From positions 1 through 44,449 of the forward strand of contig CAIKAW010000045.1 in the NCBI GenBank assembly GCA_903825575.1: a stretch of DNA of 44,449 nucleotides, in the 5' to 3' direction. The notes beneath the pieces were generated by a model. The model saw only the letters and a list, made by a program, of their open reading frames with translations, had not been told where the DNA came from and ran no database searches. This document shows, in pieces, positions 29,989 through 44,449 of the stretch. A program made the position numbers and the translations under genes. This DNA comes from an uncultured bacterium (GTDB lineage Bacteria > Actinomycetota > Actinomycetes > S36-B12 > CAIKAW01). Each line of letters starts with the position of its first letter. Position 1 is the first letter of the stretch.

Positions 29989-30468
29989 ATGTCAGCCTTC
30001 GCTAAGGGAAAGTTCGTTCTTGGGGCCGCATGCGCCACCGCCCTCGTCGTGACCCTAGCCGGGTGCGGCAGCAGTTCAGCCGCCGCGAACCCCGCGGCGG
30101 GGAGCGGGCCAGCCACCACGCTGAAGACCATGTCAACTTCTATCGGCACCGTGCTCGTCAGCGCCTCAGGGCTCACGGTGTACGAACTCGTCGGGGACAC
30201 GGCAGCCGCCCAAACCTGCACCGGTGACTGCCTAGCCGCCTGGCCACTGGTGCTAGCAAACGGCAGTCAAATGATCGTGAACGGCCACCCCGCATTCACC
30301 TTTACCGGCGACCGATCAGCCGGCGAGACCAACGGGCAGAACGTCACGGATCAATGGGGCCGGTGGTTGGCCCTGGACGCCAACGGCAACCCGATCAGCG
30401 CCTCGGCCGCGACTAGCCCGCCGGCAGCGACCACCACGGCTCCCGCTGCCGGGGGCGCAGCGTTCTAG
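29989..30468 (+). CDS. Secreted-repeat lipoprotein (COG4315/PF03640-like)
   Basis: A 159-residue lipoprotein. A signal peptide (KGKFVLGAACATALVVTLAGC) ends at a lipobox, LAGC, with lipidated Cys near residue 26. The mature part has TVYELVGDTAAAQTCTGDCL followed by AAWPLV, the Tyr...Asp...Cys-x3-Cys-x3-WP pattern of the secreted repeat of unknown function, and a weaker second repeat near FTFTGD. The C-terminus is Ala/Thr/Pro-rich. Ribosome binding site GAGGTGAGG. First gene of a four-gene string after tRNA-Gly. Function unknown; homologues are often near membrane redox genes. Confidence 0.85.
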   Translation: MSAFAKGKFVLGAACATALVVTLAGCGSSSAAANPAAGSGPATTLKTMSTSIGTVLVSASGLTVYELVGDTAAAQTCTGDCLAAWPLVLANGSQMIVNGHPAFTFTGDRSAGETNGQNVTDQWGRWLALDANGNPISASAATSPPAATTTAPAAGGAAF

Positions 30469-33603: not shown

Positions 33604-34581
33604 ATGACTGCCGCCGTTAGCGCCGTTGAGGAGCCGCTGACCATCAGTGTCGATCCTCGACGCCGCCTTGCCGGCCGACTAGCGGTAGCAGCCTGGGCAA
33701 TCGCCCTACTCACCTACTGCGTCAATATTGGGATCCCGTTTGACCGGGCCGGTCAAACGCTTTGGATCTTCGGCGGATTCATTGCGGTGGCGATCGGCCG
33801 TCCTTGGCGCCGGATGGTCTTGGTCGTCCGAGACTGGGCAGCTTTCCTAGCTGTGCTCTACATCTACGACTACTCCCGCGGAGCCGCCAAACTATTCGGA
33901 AGCACAGTTCAGGTCGTTGGTCCGATTGCTTGGGACAAGGCATTGTTCGGCGGGGTCCTCCCAACTACCTGGCTGCAGCACCGGTACTTCGACCCGACTC
34001 ACGTCCACTGGTACGAGGTCGTTGCCTCCCTTGTCTACATAACCCACTTCATAGTTCCTTGGGTTATCGCAGCGGTTCTATATGTGCGCAACCGGACCTT
34101 GTGGTTCAAGTGGGCGCGAGCCTTAGTGGTGTTGTCGTTCGCTGCATTGGTTGTCTTCATGGTGATGCCAGCTGCGCCGCCTTGGTACGCGGCCAATCGA
34201 GGACTGATTCCGCCGGTAGTACGAATCGCTACGCGCGGCCTTGATCCGATCGGCCTGCGAATGGCGAACCAACTGATTCAGCAGGGACGCGCGGTAGCGA
34301 ACGACGTAGCAGCAATTCCAAGCCTGCATACGGCGTTCGCGGTCATGGCCGCCCTATTCTTCATACCGCTCGTTCGAGGCAAATTGCGCTGGTTCCTCTG
34401 GCCGATTCTGACGCTATATCCGTTTGTAATGCTTGCAGCGCTGGTCTACTCCGGCGAGCACTATGTGATCGACGGAATAATCGGGGCGATCTTCGCTGCC
34501 GGCAGCTACTTTGGGCTGGGGGCTTGGGACCGACGCCGTGCCCGACTGAGTCAGTCGCCGTCGCGCTTAGCAGTTGGGTGA
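33604..34581 (+). CDS. PAP2 superfamily integral membrane phosphatase-like protein
   Basis: A 325-residue protein with about six helices. The acid-phosphatase signature is split as SLHTAFAVMAA (near residue 239) and GEHYVIDGIIGA (near 281), as in PAP2_3/inositol-phosphoceramide-synthase-like members. These act on lipid phosphates or transfer phosphoinositol head groups at the membrane; the substrate here is unknown. ATG at 33604 with AGGAG upstream. Its last 31 bases overlap the 3' end of moaB on the other strand. Confidence 0.85.
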   Translation: MTAAVSAVEEPLTISVDPRRRLAGRLAVAAWAIALLTYCVNIGIPFDRAGQTLWIFGGFIAVAIGRPWRRMVLVVRDWAAFLAVLYIYDYSRGAAKLFGSTVQVVGPIAWDKALFGGVLPTTWLQHRYFDPTHVHWYEVVASLVYITHFIVPWVIAAVLYVRNRTLWFKWARALVVLSFAALVVFMVMPAAPPWYAANRGLIPPVVRIATRGLDPIGLRMANQLIQQGRAVANDVAAIPSLHTAFAVMAALFFIPLVRGKLRWFLWPILTLYPFVMLAALVYSGEHYVIDGIIGAIFAAGSYFGLGAWDRRRARLSQSPSRLAVG

Positions 34582-35054
34582 CCACCGCCGTGTATTTGAT
34601 CCACCGCGTGACCCAATACCTCACCTAGCACGCCGACCGCATCTTTGGCCGCCCCGGGCGACCCAGCTACGTTAATGATCAAGCAGCGCCCGGCGATCCC
34701 GGCCACTCCGCGCGACAACATAGCGGTGGCGACTCCCGCTGAAATCCCGCGGGCGCGCAGCGTTTCAGCGATTCCGGGCAATTCGCGCTCGATCACTTGG
34801 CGCGTCTGTTCGGGGGTCAAATCATCCGGCGTGAGTCCGGTGCCGCCGGTAGTGATGACGAGGTCATACCCGGCCCCCACCGCGGCGCGTAGCGCTGCGG
34901 AAACCGGTCGCCCGTCGGCCACCACTTCTGGCCCGGCTACATCAAATCCCAACTCGGCGATGCCAGCGACCAAGATTGGCCCGGACGCGTCTGTCGCACC
35001 GCCCGCTGCCGCACTAGTCGACACGGTCAGGACCAAAGCTCGATGCGAGTTCAC
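34551..35054 (-). CDS. moaB: Molybdenum cofactor biosynthesis protein MoaB/Mog
   Basis: A 167-residue MoCF-domain protein that adenylates molybdopterin or aids metal insertion. Seen: ALVLTVSTSAAAGGATDASG, VITTGGTGLTPDDLTPE (the TTGGTG molybdopterin-binding loop), and INVAGSPGAAKDAV (the PGxP-like region). Length fits single-domain MoaB/Mog. Divergent from moaD with only 39 bases between starts. Confidence 0.92.
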   Translation of the reverse strand: MNSHRALVLTVSTSAAAGGATDASGPILVAGIAELGFDVAGPEVVADGRPVSAALRAAVGAGYDLVITTGGTGLTPDDLTPEQTRQVIERELPGIAETLRARGISAGVATAMLSRGVAGIAGRCLIINVAGSPGAAKDAVGVLGEVLGHAVDQIHGGGHPTAKRDGD

Positions 35055-35093
35055 GACCTCACCTTACTTAAGCCAACACAATAGGGTCGGGGG

Positions 35094-35351
35094 ATGAGTT
35101 CGTCTGTGATCGTCAGGTTCTACGCTGCGGCGCGGGCCGCGGCTGGGGCTCCCGAAGTGGCCGTCCCCGCAGGCACCCTGGCCGAGGTTCTTACCAATTG
35201 CACCGCCGGCCCGACTGGCAAGGCGCTGGGTCAAGTCCTCGAACGTTGCAGTTTCCTTGTCGACGGTGCAGCCGTCCACGGGGAACACGGCGACATCCTG
35301 ATCTCTGCAGGATCGACGCTGGATGTGCTTCCACCGTTCGCAGGCGGCTAG
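35094..35351 (+). CDS. moaD: Molybdopterin synthase small subunit MoaD
   Basis: An 85-residue ubiquitin-like sulphur carrier. It begins SVIVRFYAAARAAAG and ends PPFAGG; the C-terminal Gly-Gly carries the thiocarboxylate donated during dithiolene formation. With MoaE it forms molybdopterin synthase. It lies tail to tail with moaE, so the two subunits are on opposite strands. Confidence 0.9.
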   Translation: MSSSVIVRFYAAARAAAGAPEVAVPAGTLAEVLTNCTAGPTGKALGQVLERCSFLVDGAAVHGEHGDILISAGSTLDVLPPFAGG

Positions 35352-35361
35352 CCCAACCCGG

Positions 35362-35787
35362 TCAGGCGCAGTTCACCCACTCGCTCGTGCCATCGACGAA
35401 CACCTGCAACTTCCAAATTGGCAAGCAACGCTTGATTTCGTCGACTAAGGAACTACAAACGTCGAATGCCGCACCACGATGTTCGGCGCCGACCGCCACA
35501 ACAAGAGCGGCTTCGCCAATCGCCAGCGGTCCTACCCGGTGGGCCGCAGCCACCACCACGTCTGGTCCGGCCGCGGCCGCTACGCGGCTAACCACCTCGG
35601 CGAGTACCGCCCCAGCGCTCGGGTGCCCCTCGTATTCCAATCGAGCGACCGACCGACCATGGTCGACGTTCCTTACATCACCGCTGAACACGACGACTGC
35701 CCCAGATCCGGGCCCAGAAACTGCCGACGCCAACTCGTCACGGTCCAATGGCCCAGATTCAATGGCAGCCAGTCGCATTTCGCCCAC
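35362..35787 (-). CDS. moaE: Molybdopterin synthase large subunit MoaE
   Basis: A 141-residue MoaE. Family blocks are GAVVVFSGDVRNVDHGR, LEYEGHPSAGAVL, AAAHRVGPLAIGEAALVVAV, and the active-site region IKRCLPIWKLQ with the conserved lysines near residues 121 and 128. It converts precursor Z (cPMP) to molybdopterin using sulphur from MoaD. Convergent with moaD; 154 bases upstream of its start lead to the divergent sensor kinase gene and include an 18-bp palindrome. Confidence 0.93.
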   Translation of the reverse strand: MGEMRLAAIESGPLDRDELASAVSGPGSGAVVVFSGDVRNVDHGRSVARLEYEGHPSAGAVLAEVVSRVAAAAGPDVVVAAAHRVGPLAIGEAALVVAVGAEHRGAAFDVCSSLVDEIKRCLPIWKLQVFVDGTSEWVNCA

Positions 35788-35941: not shown

Positions 35942-37708
35942 GTGCGCCCTTTGGGTGATCGCAATATCAGTGCTGGACGCCCGCTTCGGCGGCTGCGCCT
36001 AATCGGGATTCTGCTACCCATCGCATTCTTGCTGGCAATCGAACTGGCCCGCCGAACGGTCGTTGAAGCTGAGAAGCCATTGGAGTGGGGCCACCTGCTG
36101 CTCTCAGCGATCGAGATGATCGCAGTGGTGGGTTTTTCGACCGTCATGTTCGACCTGGTCGAACGCACCCAACGTGAGAAGGAACGGCGCAACCGTGAAC
36201 TGGCCGCCACGAATGCCGTTTCGACTGCTCTTCGCGAGCCTCACGACCTCGACGGCATTGTCGACGCCGCCCTCGACAGCATCTTGTCAGCCACGGGTGC
36301 ACTCGTAGCGACGATCGTCATGCACGACCGAGCTACTCGGTGGTCCGCCGGAAGTAAGGCAAGCGGACGAATCAACCCACTTGTAACTCCGGCACCGGAC
36401 GCAGAACGCGAAGTCATAGATGTTCCGCTAACTACCGGAACCGCCGTTCTCGGCACCTTGCGCCTGACTTTCGTCGTAGGCCACGCAGAATCCCAGATCC
36501 TTGCGCACGACACCTTGCAGAACATCGGTCAACAGTTGGCGAACACGATTCAGAACGTAACGCTGATCACCGACCTGCAACGCGGCATGAAGGAAGGGCA
36601 CGCGTTCTACGACGTACTTATCCGAATCTCAAACGTGAACCCGCTAGCCGACACATTGACCGCAGTTGTCGACCACGCTGCCGCCCGCCTATCGGCCGAC
36701 GCGGCGGTCCTGCACTTGAATGAGAAGACGACTCGACTCCTAGCGGCCGATGGTCAATTGGCAGCCACTCCCGATGGCACAGACCACACCATTTGCTTCT
36801 GCACCGAACCTGATCATCCAAGCAACGCGCATCCGGCGGGCGACGATTGCCCGGTTCGCACCGATCCGAAATTCGCCTCCACTGTGGCGGTCCCGTTGCG
36901 CGGACCTGACGGCCCGATCGGGGACCTTTGGCTTGGTCGGACCAGTGAGCAGGCATTCGAAGACGGCGATGGCAGATTCCTGGCCACCTTGAGCGAACTG
37001 ATCTCAATCGCCATCACGAACGCCCGAATGCAGGAGCACGAGCGGCACGCTGCGACCATTGCAGAACGCGAACGGATAGCCCGCGAGATGCACGACGGAA
37101 TGGCGCAAGTGCTTGGGGTTACTCATCTTCGGCTGCGAGCACTCGAAGCTCGGCTGGCCGACACCGACATAGATTCCAGTCGCGCCGAGATCACCGCGTT
37201 GGCCGACTTGTGCCATGAAACATACGCCGATGTGCGCGAGGCCATTGTCGGGTTACGCGAACTCAACCGCGGCGACCAGAGCCTGGTCGAAGGTCTGCGC
37301 GCCTATGTCGATAAGTACACGCGGCAGAGTGGGATCCACACTCGCGTCAGCTGTGAAGTCCCCGGTGACATTCTGCTAAGTCCGCGCGCAGAGTTACAAC
37401 TGCTTCGAGTCGTGCAAGAAGCACTGACAAACGTGCGCAAGCATTCCGAAGCCACGGAAGCCAGCGTTGTCATTGCCGATTCACCCGAAGGTCTTACCTT
37501 CACCGTCCGCGACAACGGACACGGCTTTGACGCCAGCGATTTGACGCGCGAAGGTATCGGACTGCACTCAATGCGCGAACGCCTCGCGCTCATCGGCGGT
37601 ACGCTCACAGTTGAGTCGACGCCAAGCAGCGGCACGCGCATCGTTGCATTGGTTCCCGGATCGCACGGGCGAGCACAACAGGGGGAGGTCGCTGGTGTCC
37701 GCATTTGA
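35942..37708 (+). CDS. Sensor histidine kinase with two GAF-like domains (NarL-system type)
   Basis: A 588-residue kinase. Two membrane helices (about 20-37 and 50-68) precede a short coiled coil, a GAF-like domain (about 95-210) and a second GAF-like domain (about 220-365). The latter contains CFC (near residue 283) and a third Cys about 18 residues on, in GDDCPVR. The HisKA_3 box REMHDGMAQVLG puts the phospho-accepting His at 384; the ATPase part has EALTNVRKHS, RDNGHGFD and GIGLHSMRERL. GTG start with AAGGAGG. Overlaps the response regulator gene by 14 bases. The cysteines could sense redox state or bind a cluster (inference). Confidence 0.9.
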   Translation: MRPLGDRNISAGRPLRRLRLIGILLPIAFLLAIELARRTVVEAEKPLEWGHLLLSAIEMIAVVGFSTVMFDLVERTQREKERRNRELAATNAVSTALREPHDLDGIVDAALDSILSATGALVATIVMHDRATRWSAGSKASGRINPLVTPAPDAEREVIDVPLTTGTAVLGTLRLTFVVGHAESQILAHDTLQNIGQQLANTIQNVTLITDLQRGMKEGHAFYDVLIRISNVNPLADTLTAVVDHAAARLSADAAVLHLNEKTTRLLAADGQLAATPDGTDHTICFCTEPDHPSNAHPAGDDCPVRTDPKFASTVAVPLRGPDGPIGDLWLGRTSEQAFEDGDGRFLATLSELISIAITNARMQEHERHAATIAERERIAREMHDGMAQVLGVTHLRLRALEARLADTDIDSSRAEITALADLCHETYADVREAIVGLRELNRGDQSLVEGLRAYVDKYTRQSGIHTRVSCEVPGDILLSPRAELQLLRVVQEALTNVRKHSEATEASVVIADSPEGLTFTVRDNGHGFDASDLTREGIGLHSMRERLALIGGTLTVESTPSSGTRIVALVPGSHGRAQQGEVAGVRI

Positions 37709-38393
37709 TGCTCCGCCAGCGCAGCCGATCCGCGTCCTCCTAGTTGATGACCAACCACTGTTTCGCACCGCGATCGCAACGCTGATCGAATCACAGGACG
37801 ACCTGACGGTGGTCGGCGAAGCCGAGAACGGGCTGATCGGAGTCGAGCGTGCCAAGGAACTGCGTCCGGACCTGATCGTTATGGATGTCGAAATGCCGGT
37901 GATGGATGGCGTCGAAGCCACCCGACTCATCCACGAGCAGGTGCCGGACGTGAAGATCCTGATGCTCACCGTTTCCGAGTCCGAAGAGCACCTGTTCGAA
38001 GCGATCAAGTACGGCGCCCATGGCTACCTGCTGAAAGATCTACGTCCGGACCAGTTGTTCGACATGATTCGAGGCGTAATGCGCGGGGAATCCCCGATCT
38101 CTCCTGCCGTGGCCGGCCTGTTGCTCAACGAATTCCGCGGCGGCAAGTGGAGCCGAACCGAAGCGCCAACGGCCAATGCCGCGCCGCCGATCACCGCGCG
38201 CGAGTTGGAGATCCTGCAGCATGCCGCCGAAGGGTTAAGCAACAAGCAGATTGCTCGCCGGCTTTCGATCACCGAGGGCACGGTCAAGAACCATGTGCAC
38301 AATGCCCTCGAAAAGTTGCACCTAGACAACCGGATCCAGGCGGCCTCGTACATCCTGCGCCAGGGCTTGAGTCGTCCGGTGGACCCCTCTTGA
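37695..38393 (+). CDS. NarL/FixJ-family response regulator
   Basis: A 232-residue regulator. The receiver domain (about 12-130) starts RVLLVDDQPLFRTAI and has the phospho-accepting Asp64 in IVMDVEMPVMDG and Lys in YLLKDLR. The LuxR-type helix-turn-helix (about 168-225) reads ITARELEILQHAAEGLSNKQ, then IARRLSITEGTVKNHV. GTG start at 37695, preceded by GGGGAGG; it overlaps the kinase gene, so the pair is one two-component system. Probable targets are the downstream cytochrome genes or the moaE/kinase intergenic site, but no binding site is proven. Confidence 0.94.
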   Translation: MSAFDAPPAQPIRVLLVDDQPLFRTAIATLIESQDDLTVVGEAENGLIGVERAKELRPDLIVMDVEMPVMDGVEATRLIHEQVPDVKILMLTVSESEEHLFEAIKYGAHGYLLKDLRPDQLFDMIRGVMRGESPISPAVAGLLLNEFRGGKWSRTEAPTANAAPPITARELEILQHAAEGLSNKQIARRLSITEGTVKNHVHNALEKLHLDNRIQAASYILRQGLSRPVDPS

Positions 38394-38396
38394 ACA

Positions 38397-38410
38397 GTAC
38401 CTTCGGGTAC
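38397..38410 (+). terminator. Short UUCG-loop hairpin after the response regulator
   Basis: GTACC (38397-38401) and GGTAC (38406-38410) pair around TTCG, directly after the regulator stop. The stem is only five pairs and no U run follows, so it may be a weak terminator or an mRNA 3'-end stabiliser that separates the two-component genes from the cytochrome group. Confidence 0.35.
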
Positions 38411-38508
38411 ATCCCTTGGGACCAAAGTTGTGCCAGTGCGGGGATACCGGCCAGGTCCAAGTCCGCTTAGCGTCGAATCCAATCGTTCTGCAGCGCTAGG
38501 GGGCCAAC

Positions 38509-38856
38509 GTGCCGCACAAACACCCAGTTGTCCTGCTTTACGTCCATCCCCTGCTCGGGCAGGGAATCGCCAGCCATGTTCAGGCCGAAACTGGGGTTGA
38601 GGTACAAGCCGTCTCCGCGATTGACCTGCCTGGGATCCGCCGAGCCCTGGCCGGCGACCCGCGGGTCATCATCTTTGAACGCAGCCCGGTAATAGACATC
38701 CTTGACTTGCCAGCCTTGGCACCCCACGCGGTGCTGATCGATGTGACCGACACGGTCGGTTTGGGACCAGTCCCGAAGGCGCCGTTTGTTCCGACGAGCG
38801 CCGAATCACTGCTAGCCGCAGTGCAGCCGGCATTGGCGCACTTGTCTCGGTCATAG
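38509..38856 (+). CDS. Small receiver-like protein of unknown function
   Basis: A 115-residue frame starting GTG with AGGGGG upstream. The pattern VVLLYVHPLLGQGIASHVQA, then GIRRALAGDPRVIIFER and AVLIDVTDTVG, alternates beta strands and helices like a CheY-type receiver. The acidic pocket and phospho-Asp positions are not intact: V-I-I-F-E-R stands where the phospho-Asp strand is expected, and no conserved Lys is visible. It may be a degenerate receiver or an unrelated alpha/beta protein. Its place between the regulator and the TPR gene suggests a role in this locus. Confidence 0.6.
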   Translation: MPHKHPVVLLYVHPLLGQGIASHVQAETGVEVQAVSAIDLPGIRRALAGDPRVIIFERSPVIDILDLPALAPHAVLIDVTDTVGLGPVPKAPFVPTSAESLLAAVQPALAHLSRS

Positions 38857-39036
38857 GCCGCACCAGTCGCATTAGTGAGCCAGATCACACGTATTTGCCC
38901 CAAAACTGAGCGTAGGGGTACCTCGCATGTACCTCATATCTACCTGCCGACGGATGGGATCCACGAGGCGAAACTCCAAGAATTGCCTTAGGCCAAAACA
39001 AGGCCAAGTCGGACTCATGCAGGGGGTAGGTGCCAG

Positions 39037-40014
39037 GTGACCATGACACAGGATCGCCAGGCTCTTGAGAGTCAGCCGAAAGTTTCTGATCGCGCGCTCA
39101 AGCGCTTGGTTATGTGGGGCGGGATCGCCCTCGTAATCCTTTTCGCAACCTTCTGCGTCATCTACTACCTCGGCCAGCACAAGAACATGGGCCCGTCGAT
39201 GGTCGATCGTCAGATAACGGCCGGAGAGGCCGCTGTCCGGGCAGATCCCAACAACATCGGCGACCGACTCTCCCTTGCACAGCTATATGCAGCCAGCAAT
39301 CGACAGGCCGATGCACTGCAGCAGTACACGGTCGTCCTCAAGGCACTACCTAAGAACGAAGCTGCTCTCTTCGGCAAGGCCTCAATCCTCTTCGCCCAAA
39401 ACAAGCTCAACGAGGCCAGGGACGCGTACAACGCGCTGATCACGGTTGCAGCCACCGGCGAGATGGCCGGCGCCGACCCCAAACTTCAGGGGGCGCGCTA
39501 CTTCTTGGCCGTCATCGCCTACAAGCAGAGCGACTTTGCCGGTGCGGCAGGCCAAGTCAAGGAAGCCCTGCGGCTGGACCCGACGGATTCAGACGCTTGG
39601 TATCTGACCGCTCAAGTCGCAATGAAGCAGAACGCGCCACAAAGCGCCGCAGCAGCAGTTGAGAAGGCGCTCATGTTCGTGCCCTCCGGGTGGTGCGACC
39701 CGTATGCCTTGGCGATCAACGCCTACACACAACTGAAGCAGGCAAGCCAGCTCGCCTTCGCTCAGGCTCGTGAGTCGATGTGCAACGGAGATGTGGCGGC
39801 CGCAACGACAGGCTTCCAGAGCGTTGCCAACGGCGGCGATAAGACTCTGGCAACCAAGGCGCTCCTTCAACTCGCTGCCGTCTCGATCAATGCCGGGGAC
39901 ACAAACACTGCGCGAGGTTGGCTCAACAAGATCCTCGCTATCGACCCGAAGAACGCGGCTGCCAAGGCTGGCCTAACCCAACTTGGCACCCCTAGCCCGA
40001 GTGCGACGAAGTAG
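39037..40014 (+). CDS. Membrane-anchored tetratricopeptide-repeat protein
   Basis: A 325-residue protein with a cytoplasmic N-terminus, one helix (about 25-46, MWGGIALVILFATFCVIYYL) and an outward-facing domain of helical repeats. TPR-type units are visible at IGDRLSLAQLYAASNRQADA, NEAALFGKASILFAQNKLNE, ARYFLAVIAYKQSDFAGAAG, and DAWYLTAQVAMKQNAPQSAA, followed by weaker ones to DTNTARGWLNKILAIDPKN. GTG start (39037) or ATG 39043. First gene of the TPR-NHL-cytochrome string; 15 bases from the NHL gene. Probably a scaffold or assembly factor for surface complexes (inference). Confidence 0.85.
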   Translation: MTMTQDRQALESQPKVSDRALKRLVMWGGIALVILFATFCVIYYLGQHKNMGPSMVDRQITAGEAAVRADPNNIGDRLSLAQLYAASNRQADALQQYTVVLKALPKNEAALFGKASILFAQNKLNEARDAYNALITVAATGEMAGADPKLQGARYFLAVIAYKQSDFAGAAGQVKEALRLDPTDSDAWYLTAQVAMKQNAPQSAAAAVEKALMFVPSGWCDPYALAINAYTQLKQASQLAFAQARESMCNGDVAAATTGFQSVANGGDKTLATKALLQLAAVSINAGDTNTARGWLNKILAIDPKNAAAKAGLTQLGTPSPSATK

Positions 40015-40029
40015 CGACGGGGGAATGAC

Positions 40030-41106
40030 ATGAGCACAGTCGACGAGGCCCAGAAGACGGTGGAAGCCACTTCGTCTTCGGACGGTGCGAACGGGGCTGG
40101 AGAAGGCGTAATTGCCACAGCGGGAACGCCGGACAAGCAAAGCCGCTGGACGCGCAAGCGCCTATTAATAGCAGCCGGCCTCGTCGGCGCACTCTTCGTT
40201 CTTATCGGTGCGGTGTTTGTCTGGTATTTGATCACACACAAGCCAATCAGTTCTCTGCCTGGCCTCACCGACAATGCCACCCCGCACTACCGCTACAGCG
40301 TCTATGGCGTGAACCAGCCGTTGGGCGTCGCCGTCAACTCGGATGGATCGCGCATCTATGTAACACAGAGCGGCGGAACTCAGAAGGCACTGGTCTTCGA
40401 CGGCGATGGCAAACAGATCCAGGTACTCACCCCGCCAGCTACGACGGGCGCCAATCACCTTCCCGTCTACGTCGCCCTTGACCCCAACACCGGTGAGGCC
40501 TACGTATCTGACCGCCTCGCGGGCGCCATCTACGTGTACTCCGCAACTGGCAAGTACGAGCGCGCCTTTACGCATGTCGGCGTCACCGGCGTGTGGGCGC
40601 CGCTAGGAATGACGTTTGACTCCAAGGGTCAGTTGTACGTCACCCAAGCGTTCGCCTCGACCAAGAGCATCTATGTATTCAGCACTTCAGGAAACCTAGT
40701 TCGCACGATCACGACATCCACCGCGATGAGTTTCCCGAACGGAGTGGCGGTCGACGCCAAGGGAAACATTGTCGTAACTGACGGGAACAACGGCCGGGCC
40801 CTGTTCCTCAACGCCGCCGGCAAAGAGGTTTCTCAGGTGCACGCAGGCTTAGCGAAGGGCGATCTTGGCCTCCCGCGTGGAGTGGCATTCGATTCTGAGG
40901 GGCACGTCCTGATTGTGGACGCGACAGATCAAGGCGTCCGGGTTTACGGCTTCGCTGGCGAAACCGTCAACTACGTCGGAACCTTCGGCGACCAGGGCGT
41001 CGGCGATGGACTGTTCCAGTACCCGAATGGGATCGCTGCTGACACCCGCGCTCACGTATACGTCACGGACCGGGTCAACAACCGAGTCCAGGTCTGGAGT
41101 TACTGA
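40030..41106 (+). CDS. Membrane-anchored NHL-repeat beta-propeller protein
   Basis: A 358-residue protein: a hydrophilic N-terminus of about 45 residues, one helix (about 46-68), then a beta-propeller on the outer side. NHL-type blades recur as QPLGVAVNSDGSRIYVTQ, APLGMTFDSKGQLYVTQ, FPNGVAVDAKGNIVVTDG, LPRGVAFDSEGHVLIVD, and YPNGIAADTRAHVYVTDR, ending NNRVQVWSY. Such propellers bind protein or ligand and do not carry haem. It lies between the TPR gene and two multihaem cytochromes, so it may hold or position them at the cell surface (inference). Confidence 0.9.
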   Translation: MSTVDEAQKTVEATSSSDGANGAGEGVIATAGTPDKQSRWTRKRLLIAAGLVGALFVLIGAVFVWYLITHKPISSLPGLTDNATPHYRYSVYGVNQPLGVAVNSDGSRIYVTQSGGTQKALVFDGDGKQIQVLTPPATTGANHLPVYVALDPNTGEAYVSDRLAGAIYVYSATGKYERAFTHVGVTGVWAPLGMTFDSKGQLYVTQAFASTKSIYVFSTSGNLVRTITTSTAMSFPNGVAVDAKGNIVVTDGNNGRALFLNAAGKEVSQVHAGLAKGDLGLPRGVAFDSEGHVLIVDATDQGVRVYGFAGETVNYVGTFGDQGVGDGLFQYPNGIAADTRAHVYVTDRVNNRVQVWSY

Positions 41107-41140
41107 TCGATCAGTTTCCTCGGCCCCGGGTCGCGGAGAA

Positions 41141-41200
41141 GGCACGGCAAGGACAGGCAAGGCACGGCAAGGCAAGGCAAGGCAAGGCACGGCAAGGACA
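41141..41200. repeat. Twelve-unit pentamer repeat before the cytochrome gene
   Basis: Twelve consecutive 5-base units: GGCAC, GGCAA, GGACA, GGCAA, GGCAC, four GGCAA, GGCAC, GGCAA and GGACA. It ends 45 bases upstream of the first cytochrome start and begins 34 bases after the NHL stop. Non-coding, and each unit gained or lost would shift spacing by half a helical turn. Confidence 0.9.
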
Positions 41201-41245
41201 ACTCGAGTTAGTCCATAACTTCACAAGCGAAGGGAGGTGGAGACC

Positions 41246-43105
41246 TTGAAGAGAATGGTGTTCCTGATAGCAGGAACCACCGCCATTCTGTCAATGGGGG
41301 CGATGCCGGCTTTGGCCGACAACGGACCCCACGTCTCCTCCGCATTCGGCGCTGGCGTGGCAGGTTCTGTCACTACCGGTGTCAACACTGACCGGTGTGC
41401 GGGATGTCACCGCGCTCACACCGGCCAGGGAGCTTTCCTGCTCACCGCCACTGACGAGACACAGCTTTGCTACACGTGTCACGGCGAGTCCGGGACGGGT
41501 GCCACAACCAACGTCATGGACGGCATCAAGTACTCCGCCGGTACCACCGGTGCCAATAAGGCGCTGACGGCCGGCCAGCCCTCAAATAACAGCGTGATCG
41601 AGGGCGCACTGCGTGGCGGTGGGTTCGTCAAGGCTGCCATCGGAACTGGTCACATGTTCCAGTACTACAACACGACCGTCGCCAGCACCTGTACTCGCAC
41701 CGAGGGTACGGCTGGTGGCTGCAAATTCGCTGAGTTGATCCCCCCGCTCTACACCAGCTACACGGGTGACACCTCATCTAGTACGGCCGCATCCGGTGCC
41801 ACCGGAGTCACGAACAGCGGCACCTACGTACTAGAGGCGGCGACGTCCGCTCACTCAGTGGACAGCAGCACTCAGATCGCGTGGGGCAGTGGCACATCTG
41901 GCTCGTACACGAATGACGCAACTGTCAATCTGTCGTGCGTGTCATGTCACGACCCACACGGCAACGGTAACTACCGGATTCTCCGCCCAATTCCGACGGG
42001 CGCCGCATCCGGGACACCTGCGGTGACAATCGCAGATTCGGGCACGAAGACCTACACCACCAGTAACTACTGGCTGGTTGACGACCCGAACTCAACGCAG
42101 ATCACCGTAGCTACCGCTGCAACATCGGTATACGCCTCAAGCAACTTCCTGTTCAATATCTCGGCGTGGTGCGCAACCTGCCACAACCGACTGTTCGACG
42201 GATCTAGTTCTTGGGCAAATGCGTTGCAGAACCCGGTCGCCACCTCAGTGACGCTCGCTAAGGGCGCTGGAACGGCGGCAGGGACCTACGCAACTCAAGG
42301 TGGAGTGCAATTCGCCACGGTTCTTTCACCGTTGCCGGCTGATGGGACTCCGGTCCTGTTCACATCTTTCGGCACCGGAGTTGGCCCGAGCCTGCGCACG
42401 ATGTATTACCTCAAGGGTTGCGCAGTGGTAACGACTACAACCCAGTGCATGCTCACTACGGATGTTGCTGGTACGACCTACTTGGCGATCACGACAGCCG
42501 GAACGGCCAACATTGTCGCTGGAACGCGGGTGACGTGGACCGCGGGATCGTCAACCATCACGCAGTCGGCTGGCACGGTGCCAGTGGCTGCTAGTCAGCT
42601 CGTCATGCTTGCTGTGACGGCTGCCGTTGCCGCAAACAACCCGAACCTGGGCATCTACACAGGCCGGAACTACAAGGTAGTTGCTCTAACCAGCACCACC
42701 TTCAAGATCCAGAGTTATGACGCCCACAGTGGCGGTGCTTGGAGCGATGTAAAGCCAGGTATCGCAGGTAGCGGCATGTACGTCGTCGGTACCGACAACC
42801 TTGGCGCCGCAACTGGCGCTGTGACGCAGGATGGTTCGTACATGTTCCGGCACACCTCCGACAAGGGCTACGTATCCAGCACCAGTGGTGCAACCGGAAC
42901 CCTTGGCGTGGGAACTCGTGATGAATGGGACAACAACCCGAACTGCATCACGTGTCACGTGGCACACGGTTCGAACGCCAGCATGACCGGTGACGTTAAC
43001 TCGACAACCTCGGGCGCAGTCACCTTCCCCGACGCATCGACGGGCGACAGCTTCTTGCTGCGCGTCGACAACCGGGGAACCTGCAGGTCCTGCCACAACT
43101 ACTGA
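41246..43105 (+). CDS. Secreted multihaem c-type cytochrome (six CXXCH sites)
   Basis: A 619-residue protein. A signal peptide (KRMVFLIAGTTAILSMGAMPALA) ends near residue 24. Haem sites: CAGCH 51, CYTCH 75, CVSCH 231, CATCH 309, CITCH 567 and CRSCH 613. Three are of the CxxCHxxH (doubled CXXCH) form: CHRAH, CHDPH and CHVAH. Eight further His residues could serve as distal ligands. Between sites four and five lies a haem-free stretch of about 255 residues rich in Thr, Ala, Gly and Val that looks beta-rich. The TTG start at 41246 is eight bases after GGAGG; an upstream GTG lies inside that site. Likely an electron carrier outside the membrane; partners are unknown. Confidence 0.92.
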   Translation: MKRMVFLIAGTTAILSMGAMPALADNGPHVSSAFGAGVAGSVTTGVNTDRCAGCHRAHTGQGAFLLTATDETQLCYTCHGESGTGATTNVMDGIKYSAGTTGANKALTAGQPSNNSVIEGALRGGGFVKAAIGTGHMFQYYNTTVASTCTRTEGTAGGCKFAELIPPLYTSYTGDTSSSTAASGATGVTNSGTYVLEAATSAHSVDSSTQIAWGSGTSGSYTNDATVNLSCVSCHDPHGNGNYRILRPIPTGAASGTPAVTIADSGTKTYTTSNYWLVDDPNSTQITVATAATSVYASSNFLFNISAWCATCHNRLFDGSSSWANALQNPVATSVTLAKGAGTAAGTYATQGGVQFATVLSPLPADGTPVLFTSFGTGVGPSLRTMYYLKGCAVVTTTTQCMLTTDVAGTTYLAITTAGTANIVAGTRVTWTAGSSTITQSAGTVPVAASQLVMLAVTAAVAANNPNLGIYTGRNYKVVALTSTTFKIQSYDAHSGGAWSDVKPGIAGSGMYVVGTDNLGAATGAVTQDGSYMFRHTSDKGYVSSTSGATGTLGVGTRDEWDNNPNCITCHVAHGSNASMTGDVNSTTSGAVTFPDASTGDSFLLRVDNRGTCRSCHNY

Positions 43106-43191
43106 TCCAACTGGCAGAAACGGTTTGACCGATGGCGGGGCGCGTAACAACCGCCCCGCCATCGAACTGAAGCAACAGCTAAGGAGTCACC

Positions 43192-44449
43192 GTGCGACGG
43201 CCAGCAGATTCGATGCGCAGCATCGGAACTCTGGCCGTCGCCGCACTTCTGCTGCTTGTGGGCTGGCTGCTCGCCGCGGCCGTACAAGCCACCGCTGCAC
43301 ACGCGATCACCAGCGCCCCGAATGCGCTAGTCCGATCTGGCAGCGGCCCAACAACCAACCCGCACCAGTCGACGGCCTTTGGCGCTGGCCCGGTGGATGG
43401 AACAACCGTCGGCGTCAATAGCGATCGTTGCGCCCTGTGCCACCGAGTCCACACGGCATCACAACCAGCGCTTCTCGCCTCAGGTGCCACGCAGAGCGAA
43501 CTGTGCTTTACCTGCCACAGTTCCGCCGGGCTCGGCTCGAGCACACCAGTTCAGAGCGAATACACGGACGTCACCCAGACTAATAATCCGGCCACCGGTT
43601 TGTACTACTCACACACCGCGTATTACTCGCCCAGTCCGTCGATGCCACACCTCGTCGAATCTTCCGACGAGTTCTCCGGCGTGCTGAACCGCCACAGCGA
43701 GTGCAGCGATTGTCACAATCCCCACCAGTCTTTCGGAACCACAATCGCCGCTTCAACTGGCTCAAACGCCTGGACGCCGTCCTTCCGGTTGAGCGGTGTC
43801 TCCGGCCTCTCCGTCGTGAACGGGCCTGCCGGGGCGGCGCCCGCCTACACCTTCGTCAACGGCACCGACAGCCCGGTCACGTACGAGTACCAGGTGTGCC
43901 TGAAGTGCCACAGTGGCCGCACCGTGTTACCGCCGAACGACAGTGGCCTGCCGTCGCGTGACATCCTCGACATCGGTATCGAGTTCAACCCGAACAACTA
44001 CTCGACCCACCCGATCGAAGCAGCGGGAACGAACGCCACCCCGGCGATGAACGTCAGCCTCGCAGGTGGCACCAAGTGGTCAACGTTCACGTCGAGCAGC
44101 ACCATCCGTTGCACCAACTGCCATGCCAATGGCGCGGCTCTGGCGTCGGCCACCGATGCTGGATCGAATCTTGCACCACACGCCTCTGCGTACAAGGGCA
44201 TCCTCATCGCCAACTACAACAACGGCGATCCGGCGCTGCCCGCTCAAGGTGCTGCGTACGCTGCCACCGATTTCACGTTGTGCTACTTGTGTCACGCCGC
44301 CAGCGCCTACTCCCCCGGCGGGGGCGCCCCCGGCGACGCTGCAACGAACTTCAAACTTGTTGGCGGTTCAAACTTGCATCGGCTCCATGTTTCAGGACTC
44401 TTCAACAAAGGTGGCGAGTCTGGCGCCGGAACGAGTATCGACGTCCTCG
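43192..44449 (+). CDS. Second secreted multihaem cytochrome (partial, runs off the window)
   Basis: A GTG with AAGGAG five bases upstream opens a frame that stays open to the window end (419 codons seen). The N-terminus has a signal or anchor helix (RSIGTLAVAALLLLVGWLLA, about 10-30). Haem sites: CALCH 80, CFTCH 105, CSDCH 171, CLKCH 236, CTNCH 307 and CYLCH 364, with CHRVH and CHNPH doubled motifs. The STAFGAG...GVNSDRCALCHRVHT start parallels SSAFGAG...GVNTDRCAGCHRAHT in the previous gene, so the two are paralogues. No haem-free insert of similar size is seen. 86 bases separate it from the first cytochrome, so the genes are probably co-transcribed. Confidence 0.9.
   Translation, partial: MRRPADSMRSIGTLAVAALLLLVGWLLAAAVQATAAHAITSAPNALVRSGSGPTTNPHQSTAFGAGPVDGTTVGVNSDRCALCHRVHTASQPALLASGATQSELCFTCHSSAGLGSSTPVQSEYTDVTQTNNPATGLYYSHTAYYSPSPSMPHLVESSDEFSGVLNRHSECSDCHNPHQSFGTTIAASTGSNAWTPSFRLSGVSGLSVVNGPAGAAPAYTFVNGTDSPVTYEYQVCLKCHSGRTVLPPNDSGLPSRDILDIGIEFNPNNYSTHPIEAAGTNATPAMNVSLAGGTKWSTFTSSSTIRCTNCHANGAALASATDAGSNLAPHASAYKGILIANYNNGDPALPAQGAAYAATDFTLCYLCHAASAYSPGGGAPGDAATNFKLVGGSNLHRLHVSGLFNKGGESGAGTSIDVL

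Follow-up and report, generated by a model that had tools for sequence, protein, structure and literature searches.

The contig CAIKAW010000045.1 (GenBank assembly GCA_903825575.1) is a 44,449-nucleotide stretch of DNA from an uncultured actinobacterium (GTDB lineage Actinomycetota; Actinomycetes; S36-B12; CAIKAW01). This stretch, here called the window, corresponds to C45, one of 108 contigs that make up a draft genome of 2.2 Mb, and it ends in a run of plus-strand genes for a sensor kinase, a response regulator, a degenerate receiver, a TPR protein (TPR1), an NHL protein and two multihaem cytochromes (cytochromes 1 and 2). We consider it likely that this locus specifies a regulated respiratory branch that moves electrons out of the monoderm actinobacterial cell. 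An earlier sequence-only reading of the window had proposed a locus for extracellular electron transfer (EET), a proposal now strengthened by a quinol-side decahaem cytochrome on another contig of the same genome (C99) and by cytochrome maturation genes in the homologous loci of relatives. All seven genes, with the domains assigned to them, are confirmed by open reading frames and domain searches. The combination of NHL, TPR and multihaem proteins is not new to Gram-positive bacteria, having been described in Dethiobacter (PMC10376724); what is added here is the quinol-side decahaem protein, the link to maturation, the kinship with OmcS, the conserved gene order and the phylum-wide linkage.

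Cytochrome 2 and the probable quinol side of the locus

Two secreted cytochromes with at least six haem sites each had been predicted. Both are present, and a signal-peptide-like stretch opens each of them (hydropathy), with the correction that the gene for cytochrome 2 (43213..44449, plus strand) is truncated by the contig end after six CXXCH motifs (Paired_CXXCH_1, 1.7e-17) and belongs to an octahaem family, six of whose eight haem sites fall inside the window. A complete homologue of 510 residues, with seven CXXCH motifs and one CX3CH, is encoded on the 5370-bp contig C99 (L004:11-1543), and is 88% identical to the window copy as protein and 85% as DNA. It is followed on C99 by a second TPR protein, TPR2 (L004:1733-2629), by a 545-residue NapC-type cytochrome with ten CXXCH motifs (L004:2637-4274) and, on the reverse strand, by a thioredoxin (L004:4810-5325). 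The decahaem protein carries an N-terminal NapC/NirT domain (PF03264 Cytochrom_NNT, 8.5e-11, above the cut-off) with a membrane helix at residues 27-45, and among structures in the PDB it matches the NrfH chain 2j7a_C (E 2.6e-9).

Because relatives keep the same gene order after cytochrome 2, C99 most probably continues the locus and follows C45 in the genome. In G052 and G061, genomes of the same taxonomic order, the sequence of genes is cytochrome 2, TPR2, decahaem cytochrome, thioredoxin, CcmE and CcmA/B, and in G017 cytochrome 2 and TPR2 precede CcdA, ResB, a CcsA-like and a thioredoxin-like protein, after which the decahaem gene follows. The two copies of cytochrome 2 have diverged at synonymous sites (dS 0.77) and are under purifying selection (dN/dS 0.105); with this dS and only 85% identity in DNA, strain variation is too small to account for the pair. 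Both copies (window 43213-44449 and L004:11-1543) nevertheless share identical stretches of 98 and 79 bp, which suggests recent exchange between them. Either the gene would have been duplicated in tandem and homogenised by gene conversion, or C99 would be a sister-species contig; between positions 30000 and 44449 of the window, no part other than cytochrome 2 has a second copy.

Cytochrome 1 and its kinship with OmcS

Cytochrome 1 (41237..43105, plus strand) is predicted to be a secreted hexahaem protein, with exactly six CXXCH motifs at residues 54, 78, 234, 312, 570 and 616 (Paired_CXXCH_1, 3.3e-17). These motifs are invariant in all 14 members of its family, as are five histidines outside them (H61, H206, H241, H539 and H577), while a sixth, H32, is kept in 13 of the 14. 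The conserved distal histidines suggest that all six haems are bis-histidine-coordinated, and since there are six of them for six haems, cytochrome 1 would have no open catalytic haem. In keeping with the count of motifs and histidines, a lysine-ligated catalytic haem of the NrfA type was not found in this protein, and NrfA itself matches with E values of at least 0.6.

When a wide profile built from the 14-member family alignment (A7) was compared with the PDB, the top match was OmcS (E 2.4e-13), over residues 6-347; the first five haem motifs stand in register in this alignment, whereas the remaining multihaem proteins of known structure match at short paired motifs only. OmcS scores 62.5 bits against this profile. 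In a control that kept all of its haem motifs and histidines and shuffled the remaining residues between haems, the best of 500 shuffles reached 35.6 bits and none scored as well as the native sequence. Cytochrome 1 thus appears to be a remote relative of OmcS and CwcA. Like OmcS of Geobacter sulfurreducens (PDB 6EF8), it has six CXXCH motifs, in register where compared, a CHxxH at haem 1 and a conserved motif at haem 5. Unlike it, at low overall identity, it carries long inserts (622 residues against 407), and whereas OmcS is an observed filament, cytochrome 1 is known from its sequence alone.

The alignment also covers residues that may bear on polymerisation. H16 of OmcS, which we take to be the inter-subunit ligand of haem 5, aligns with the invariant H61, and H332 of haem 5 with H574. 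In the OmcS filament one ligand of haem 5 is supplied by the neighbouring subunit (PMC6584659). The match is compatible with polymer formation in cytochrome 1, but is no proof of it, since the motif concerned, CXXCHxxH, is widespread. For CwcA of Thermincola, an argument of the same kind from an OmcS-based model has been published (PMC7911101). The suggestion of a filament made from the sequence alone thus gains support from the relationship to OmcS, and the hexahaem cytochrome may stack into short wires; of all the proposals made here, a filament is the least secure.

The TPR and NHL proteins and the regulatory genes

TPR1 (39037..40014, plus strand) and the NHL protein (40030..41106, plus strand) each begin with a single membrane helix, and since more positive charge precedes than follows that helix (hydropathy), their repeat domains are predicted to face outward. 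In the NHL protein (Pfam NHL, 2.9e-24), the structural model (predicted template modelling score, pTM, 0.68) places a six-bladed propeller after the helix, and its best matches in the PDB are NHL domains, among them the one that PknD exposes outside the cell. From the constant linkage described below, the propeller probably serves to dock the secreted cytochromes or to pass them on, a role in secretion and orientation similar to that proposed by the authors of the Dethiobacter study (PMC10376724).

Six of 148 relatives have the NHL protein (G017, G020, G035, G052, G061 and G000, a count that includes the present genome). Of 166 genomes, five match the decahaem profile, namely the NHL-bearing genomes minus G020, and the hexahaem profile recovers the same five together with a weak sixth match. 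Among the 395 genomes of a class-wide sample the decahaem protein is confined to its own order. The earlier claim that multihaem cytochromes are uncommon in Actinobacteria therefore holds within the order; across the phylum it needs to be softened, as the NHL family that accompanies them occurs in 49 of 397 genomes, the present one and 48 of other classes, most of them small.

The earlier reading had also hung on TPR and NHL homologues being linked to cytochromes elsewhere, and in the 20 best loci from other classes linked they are. In 19 of these deep loci the NHL gene has a gene with five or more CXXCH motifs within 3 kb, and in the remaining one at 3.8 kb; in 16 its neighbour on the same strand is a TPR1-like gene, at no more than 300 bp in 15 of them and at 432 bp in the other. 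Hexahaem relatives of cytochrome 1, one or two per locus, occur in eight of the 20. Generic relatives of the NHL protein in other phyla have a multihaem gene nearby in just six of 35 loci, so that generic NHL homology is uninformative, and a scan of named genome contigs with this protein brought up distant propellers from other phyla only (best locus 34% identity). The sequences from the order group together in the NHL tree as a single clade, set among the phylum's deep families, with 100% support in the Shimodaira-Hasegawa-like approximate likelihood-ratio test (SH-aLRT); this clade adjoins G522, G551 and G537 with 91%. This topology fits a single acquisition by the order or patchy retention, without choosing between them.

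Other arrangements of these genes came to light in the same surveys. Three deep-family loci (L100, L101 and L102) combine a 14-haem gene, a TPR gene and an NHL gene with two tandem OmcS-like hexahaem genes, and lend themselves well to comparison with the window locus. In another class of the phylum, multihaem genes with 5-12 CXXCH, some of them NapC/NrfH-like, are densely packed at L068:9023-14579 together with a Rex-like regulator; a TPR-NHL-cytochrome group and a CcdA-like gene lie nearby. In Nitrospira, a protein of 763-829 residues with 30-33 CXXCH motifs in regularly repeated haem modules, and so of very high haem density, is encoded beside an NHL gene (L026:11011-13338, L033:11011-13332, L030:7853-10141 and L041:5832-8318).

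The TPR proteins had been taken for scaffolds, an assignment which we would now replace. Over about 170 residues, TPR2 of this genome is 55% identical, and that of G052 61% identical, to the C-terminal tail of a CcmF protein from G035. The CcmF gene concerned (L015:2263-5094, reverse strand) encodes a haem lyase extended at its C-terminus by a TPR domain, to which the free-standing TPR2 is homologous. Because the domain is fused to CcmF in one genome and stands free beside cytochromes in others, a part in maturation is likely, and there is a good probability that TPR2 is a maturation or hand-over factor rather than a scaffold. By analogy TPR1 might act likewise. Orthologues of TPR1 occur in five genomes of the order; it matches TPR_2 (Pfam, 1.7e-16; helix at residues 24-42) and also TPR_CcmH_CycH (3e-8), the latter below the Pfam cut-off and outscored by generic TPR families. 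Maturation genes (CcmE, CcmA/B, CcmF or CcdA/ResB) sit in the homologous loci of relatives. For the present genome, System I maturation was considered and rejected: CcmE was not found in it, and a ResB gene is present elsewhere.

The locus opens with the regulatory genes. The NarX-like sensor histidine kinase (35942..37708, plus strand; start at 35942 or 35951) has HATPase_c (3.7e-15), HisKA_3 (1.3e-12) and GAF_2 (8.1e-10) domains (Pfam and NCBIfam), with hydrophobic stretches towards its N-terminus (hydropathy), and is found at the same position in the G061 and G017 loci. The NarL/LuxR-type response regulator (37695..38393, plus strand) has Response_reg (8.7e-30) and GerE (1.8e-18) domains (Pfam), and its best NCBIfam model is NarL, at a score under the NarL cut-off; its longest frame opens at 37611, but 37695, which gives a 14-base overlap with the kinase gene, is the likelier start. 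The 115-residue receiver-like protein that follows (38509..38856, plus strand) matches no Pfam or NCBIfam model. By eye, it reads YVHP where ordinary receivers have VDDHP, and lacks the acidic pocket. Its gene, between the NarL-type regulator and TPR1, is conserved in three genomes, being kept at the same position in G061 (50% identity) and G017 (38%).

Two further features lie within or beside the locus. An imperfect 10-bp tandem repeat of the GGCACGGCAA type occupies part of the gap between the NHL and cytochrome 1 genes (41141..41195, plus strand; repeat search), and molybdenum cofactor genes (MoCF_biosynth/MogA-like, MoaD/ThiS-like and MoaE; 34551-35787) lie directly upstream of the kinase, probably unrelated to the locus.

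Electron flow, alternatives and known systems

In the route that we favour, the NarX/NarL-like system would sense a redox or electron-acceptor signal and switch the genes on. The one-helix decahaem cytochrome, whose homology to the NapC/NrfH type is evident, would then draw electrons from menaquinol. The membrane-anchored TPR proteins may present apocytochromes to the haem-attachment machinery, as the homology of TPR2 to the CcmF tail suggests and as might be expected of TPR1, and the NHL propeller on the outward face of the membrane would probably dock or pass on the secreted products. The octahaem and hexahaem cytochromes, in which all or nearly all haems can be paired with histidines, would provide the route across the wall. 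The source organism is probably oxygen-breathing, and since its genome also holds two haem-copper oxidase genes, the terminal acceptors, likely Fe(III), Mn(IV), humics or an electrode-like partner, would be used when oxygen is short. A bolder extension, which we offer tentatively and would not yet bet on, is that members of this otherwise aerobic order build OmcS-family hexahaem wires across the monoderm wall and that the TPR-NHL pair is a dedicated, phylum-wide assembly or docking device whose TPR part has been split from, or fused to, CcmF.

Several points weigh against this account. The link between C45 and C99 is one of synteny, not of reads, and C99 could be the mis-binned contig of a sister species. 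The OmcS homology rests on the wider family, because a narrow profile of four members from the order only (A2) fails to separate OmcS from shuffled sequences (5.3 bits, a score that one of 500 shuffles also reached at best), and order-only profiles of both cytochromes find local motif matches only in the PDB. The AlphaFold model of cytochrome 1, built from a single sequence, has a predicted local distance difference test score (pLDDT) of 31, too low to be of use. Neither a surface anchor nor a terminal reductase could be recognised for the locus, and the sequence does not fix which way electrons flow.

The alternative that survives best departs from our reading in the acceptor and the lack of a wire alone. 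It holds that a wall-associated respiration passes electrons to a soluble acceptor (a flavin shuttle, chelated Fe(III) or humics) through cytochromes that act as separate carriers and form no polymer. In its favour, cluster 1-Fe-T of Dethiobacter alkaliphilus has a homologue of SmhB, a cytochrome specific for soluble Fe(III) (PMC10376724), and the inter-subunit motif that would speak for a wire often occurs in multihaem proteins that are not related, MtrA being one. The homology to OmcS over its full length favours a wire-like role, however, and the six distal histidines of cytochrome 1, with no open catalytic haem, also tell against it; we regard this alternative as a serious one, to which we nonetheless give less than an even chance.

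Inward flow, in which the cytochromes would bring electrons from Fe(II), minerals or other cells to the quinone pool or oxygen, is improbable in our view. NapC-type cytochromes can in principle run in both directions, and the two haem-copper oxidases would offer such electrons an outlet to oxygen; yet NapC/NrfH-type proteins are classically quinol oxidases. Outward flow is accordingly assumed because the entry protein is of the quinol-oxidising type and because the published monoderm analogues are reductive. In favour of inward flow, NHL units (UetHI) stand beside multihaem cytochromes in the Uet electron-uptake cluster of Gallionella and Tenderiales (PMC10734462). That system is Gram-negative, has a beta-barrel porin and a prolyl isomerase, and is presumed to carry electrons inward. 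A porin-cytochrome conduit of the MtrCAB or Pcc kind is not apparent within the locus, as the homologous loci contain no porin-like or unassigned long gene, and the window cytochromes match MtrC and DmsE models at local motifs only.

It is very unlikely that the cytochromes serve an ordinary terminal reductase for nitrite, tetrathionate or sulfite with its catalytic gene outside the contig. The regulator does resemble the nitrate/nitrite regulator NarL, and some NrfA-like matches were obtained, albeit with E values of 0.6-1.1; each haem of cytochrome 1 has its distal histidine, and no other Paired_CXXCH protein is encoded in this genome. The earlier reading had singled out a nitrite or tetrathionate reductase in the following genes as a finding that would overturn it, and none follows in the homologous loci, those of G052, G061, G017 and G035 continuing with maturation genes instead. 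Finally, although the 108-contig draft is presumably metagenomic and holds cytochrome 2 in two versions, 85% identical in DNA, on two contigs, a binning or assembly error that brought in a foreign cluster can practically be dismissed, given that the cluster shares its contig with tig, clpX, valS and mreB-region genes, that its guanine-plus-cytosine (GC) content, third-position GC and codon composition match tig, valS and clpX, and that it recurs in five further genomes of the order, with their NHL proteins in the single fully supported clade.

The closest published parallels are found in other monoderms. In Thermincola, a Gram-positive reducer of Fe(III) and anodes, electrons are proposed to pass along ImdcA, PdcA, CwcA and OcwA, and an OmcS-based model places CwcA in the cell wall (PMC7911101). 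Judged by that description, the two systems share an inner-membrane decahaem cytochrome and a hexahaem OmcS-like wall cytochrome; they differ in phylum, in the octahaem protein that takes the place of PdcA, in the lack of a recognisable OcwA and in the TPR, NHL and two-component genes linked here. Dethiobacter alkaliphilus has EET clusters 1-Fe-T to 3-Fe-T and 2-Fe, whose cytochromes are up-regulated (PMC10376724). In gene content these clusters likewise unite a CymA-like cytochrome, secreted multihaem cytochromes and NHL/TPR proteins, whereas flavoproteins and MtoA-like cytochromes are found in Dethiobacter only, and the NarX/NarL pair, the degenerate receiver, the TPR2 resembling a CcmF tail and the fixed compact order only here. 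Nearer in phylogeny, the Anaerosomatales (OPB41) have multihaem clusters with maturation genes, and an isolate that reduces Fe(III) (PMC9686372). They share with the present organism the actinobacterial phylum, multihaem cytochromes and maturation genes, but belong to another class and are anaerobes, and an NHL/TPR linkage is not mentioned in that study. Their cluster with Rex and cytochrome biogenesis genes is resembled by L068, in gene content only.

How electrons cross the thick Gram-positive wall is an open question, and the few model systems for it come mostly from Firmicutes. The present locus provides a parts list in one order, that is, a regulator, a TPR-NHL pair, a hexahaem and an octahaem cytochrome, a maturation TPR protein and a quinol-side decahaem cytochrome, and since it is spread over the phylum's deep families, many natural variants are on offer for comparison. 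From the locus one would expect seemingly aerobic organisms to dispose of electrons under anaerobic or micro-oxic conditions. It also makes two ideas directly testable, namely that a relative of OmcS may polymerise outside a monoderm cell, and that NHL and TPR genes may be needed for the export or maturation of cytochromes.

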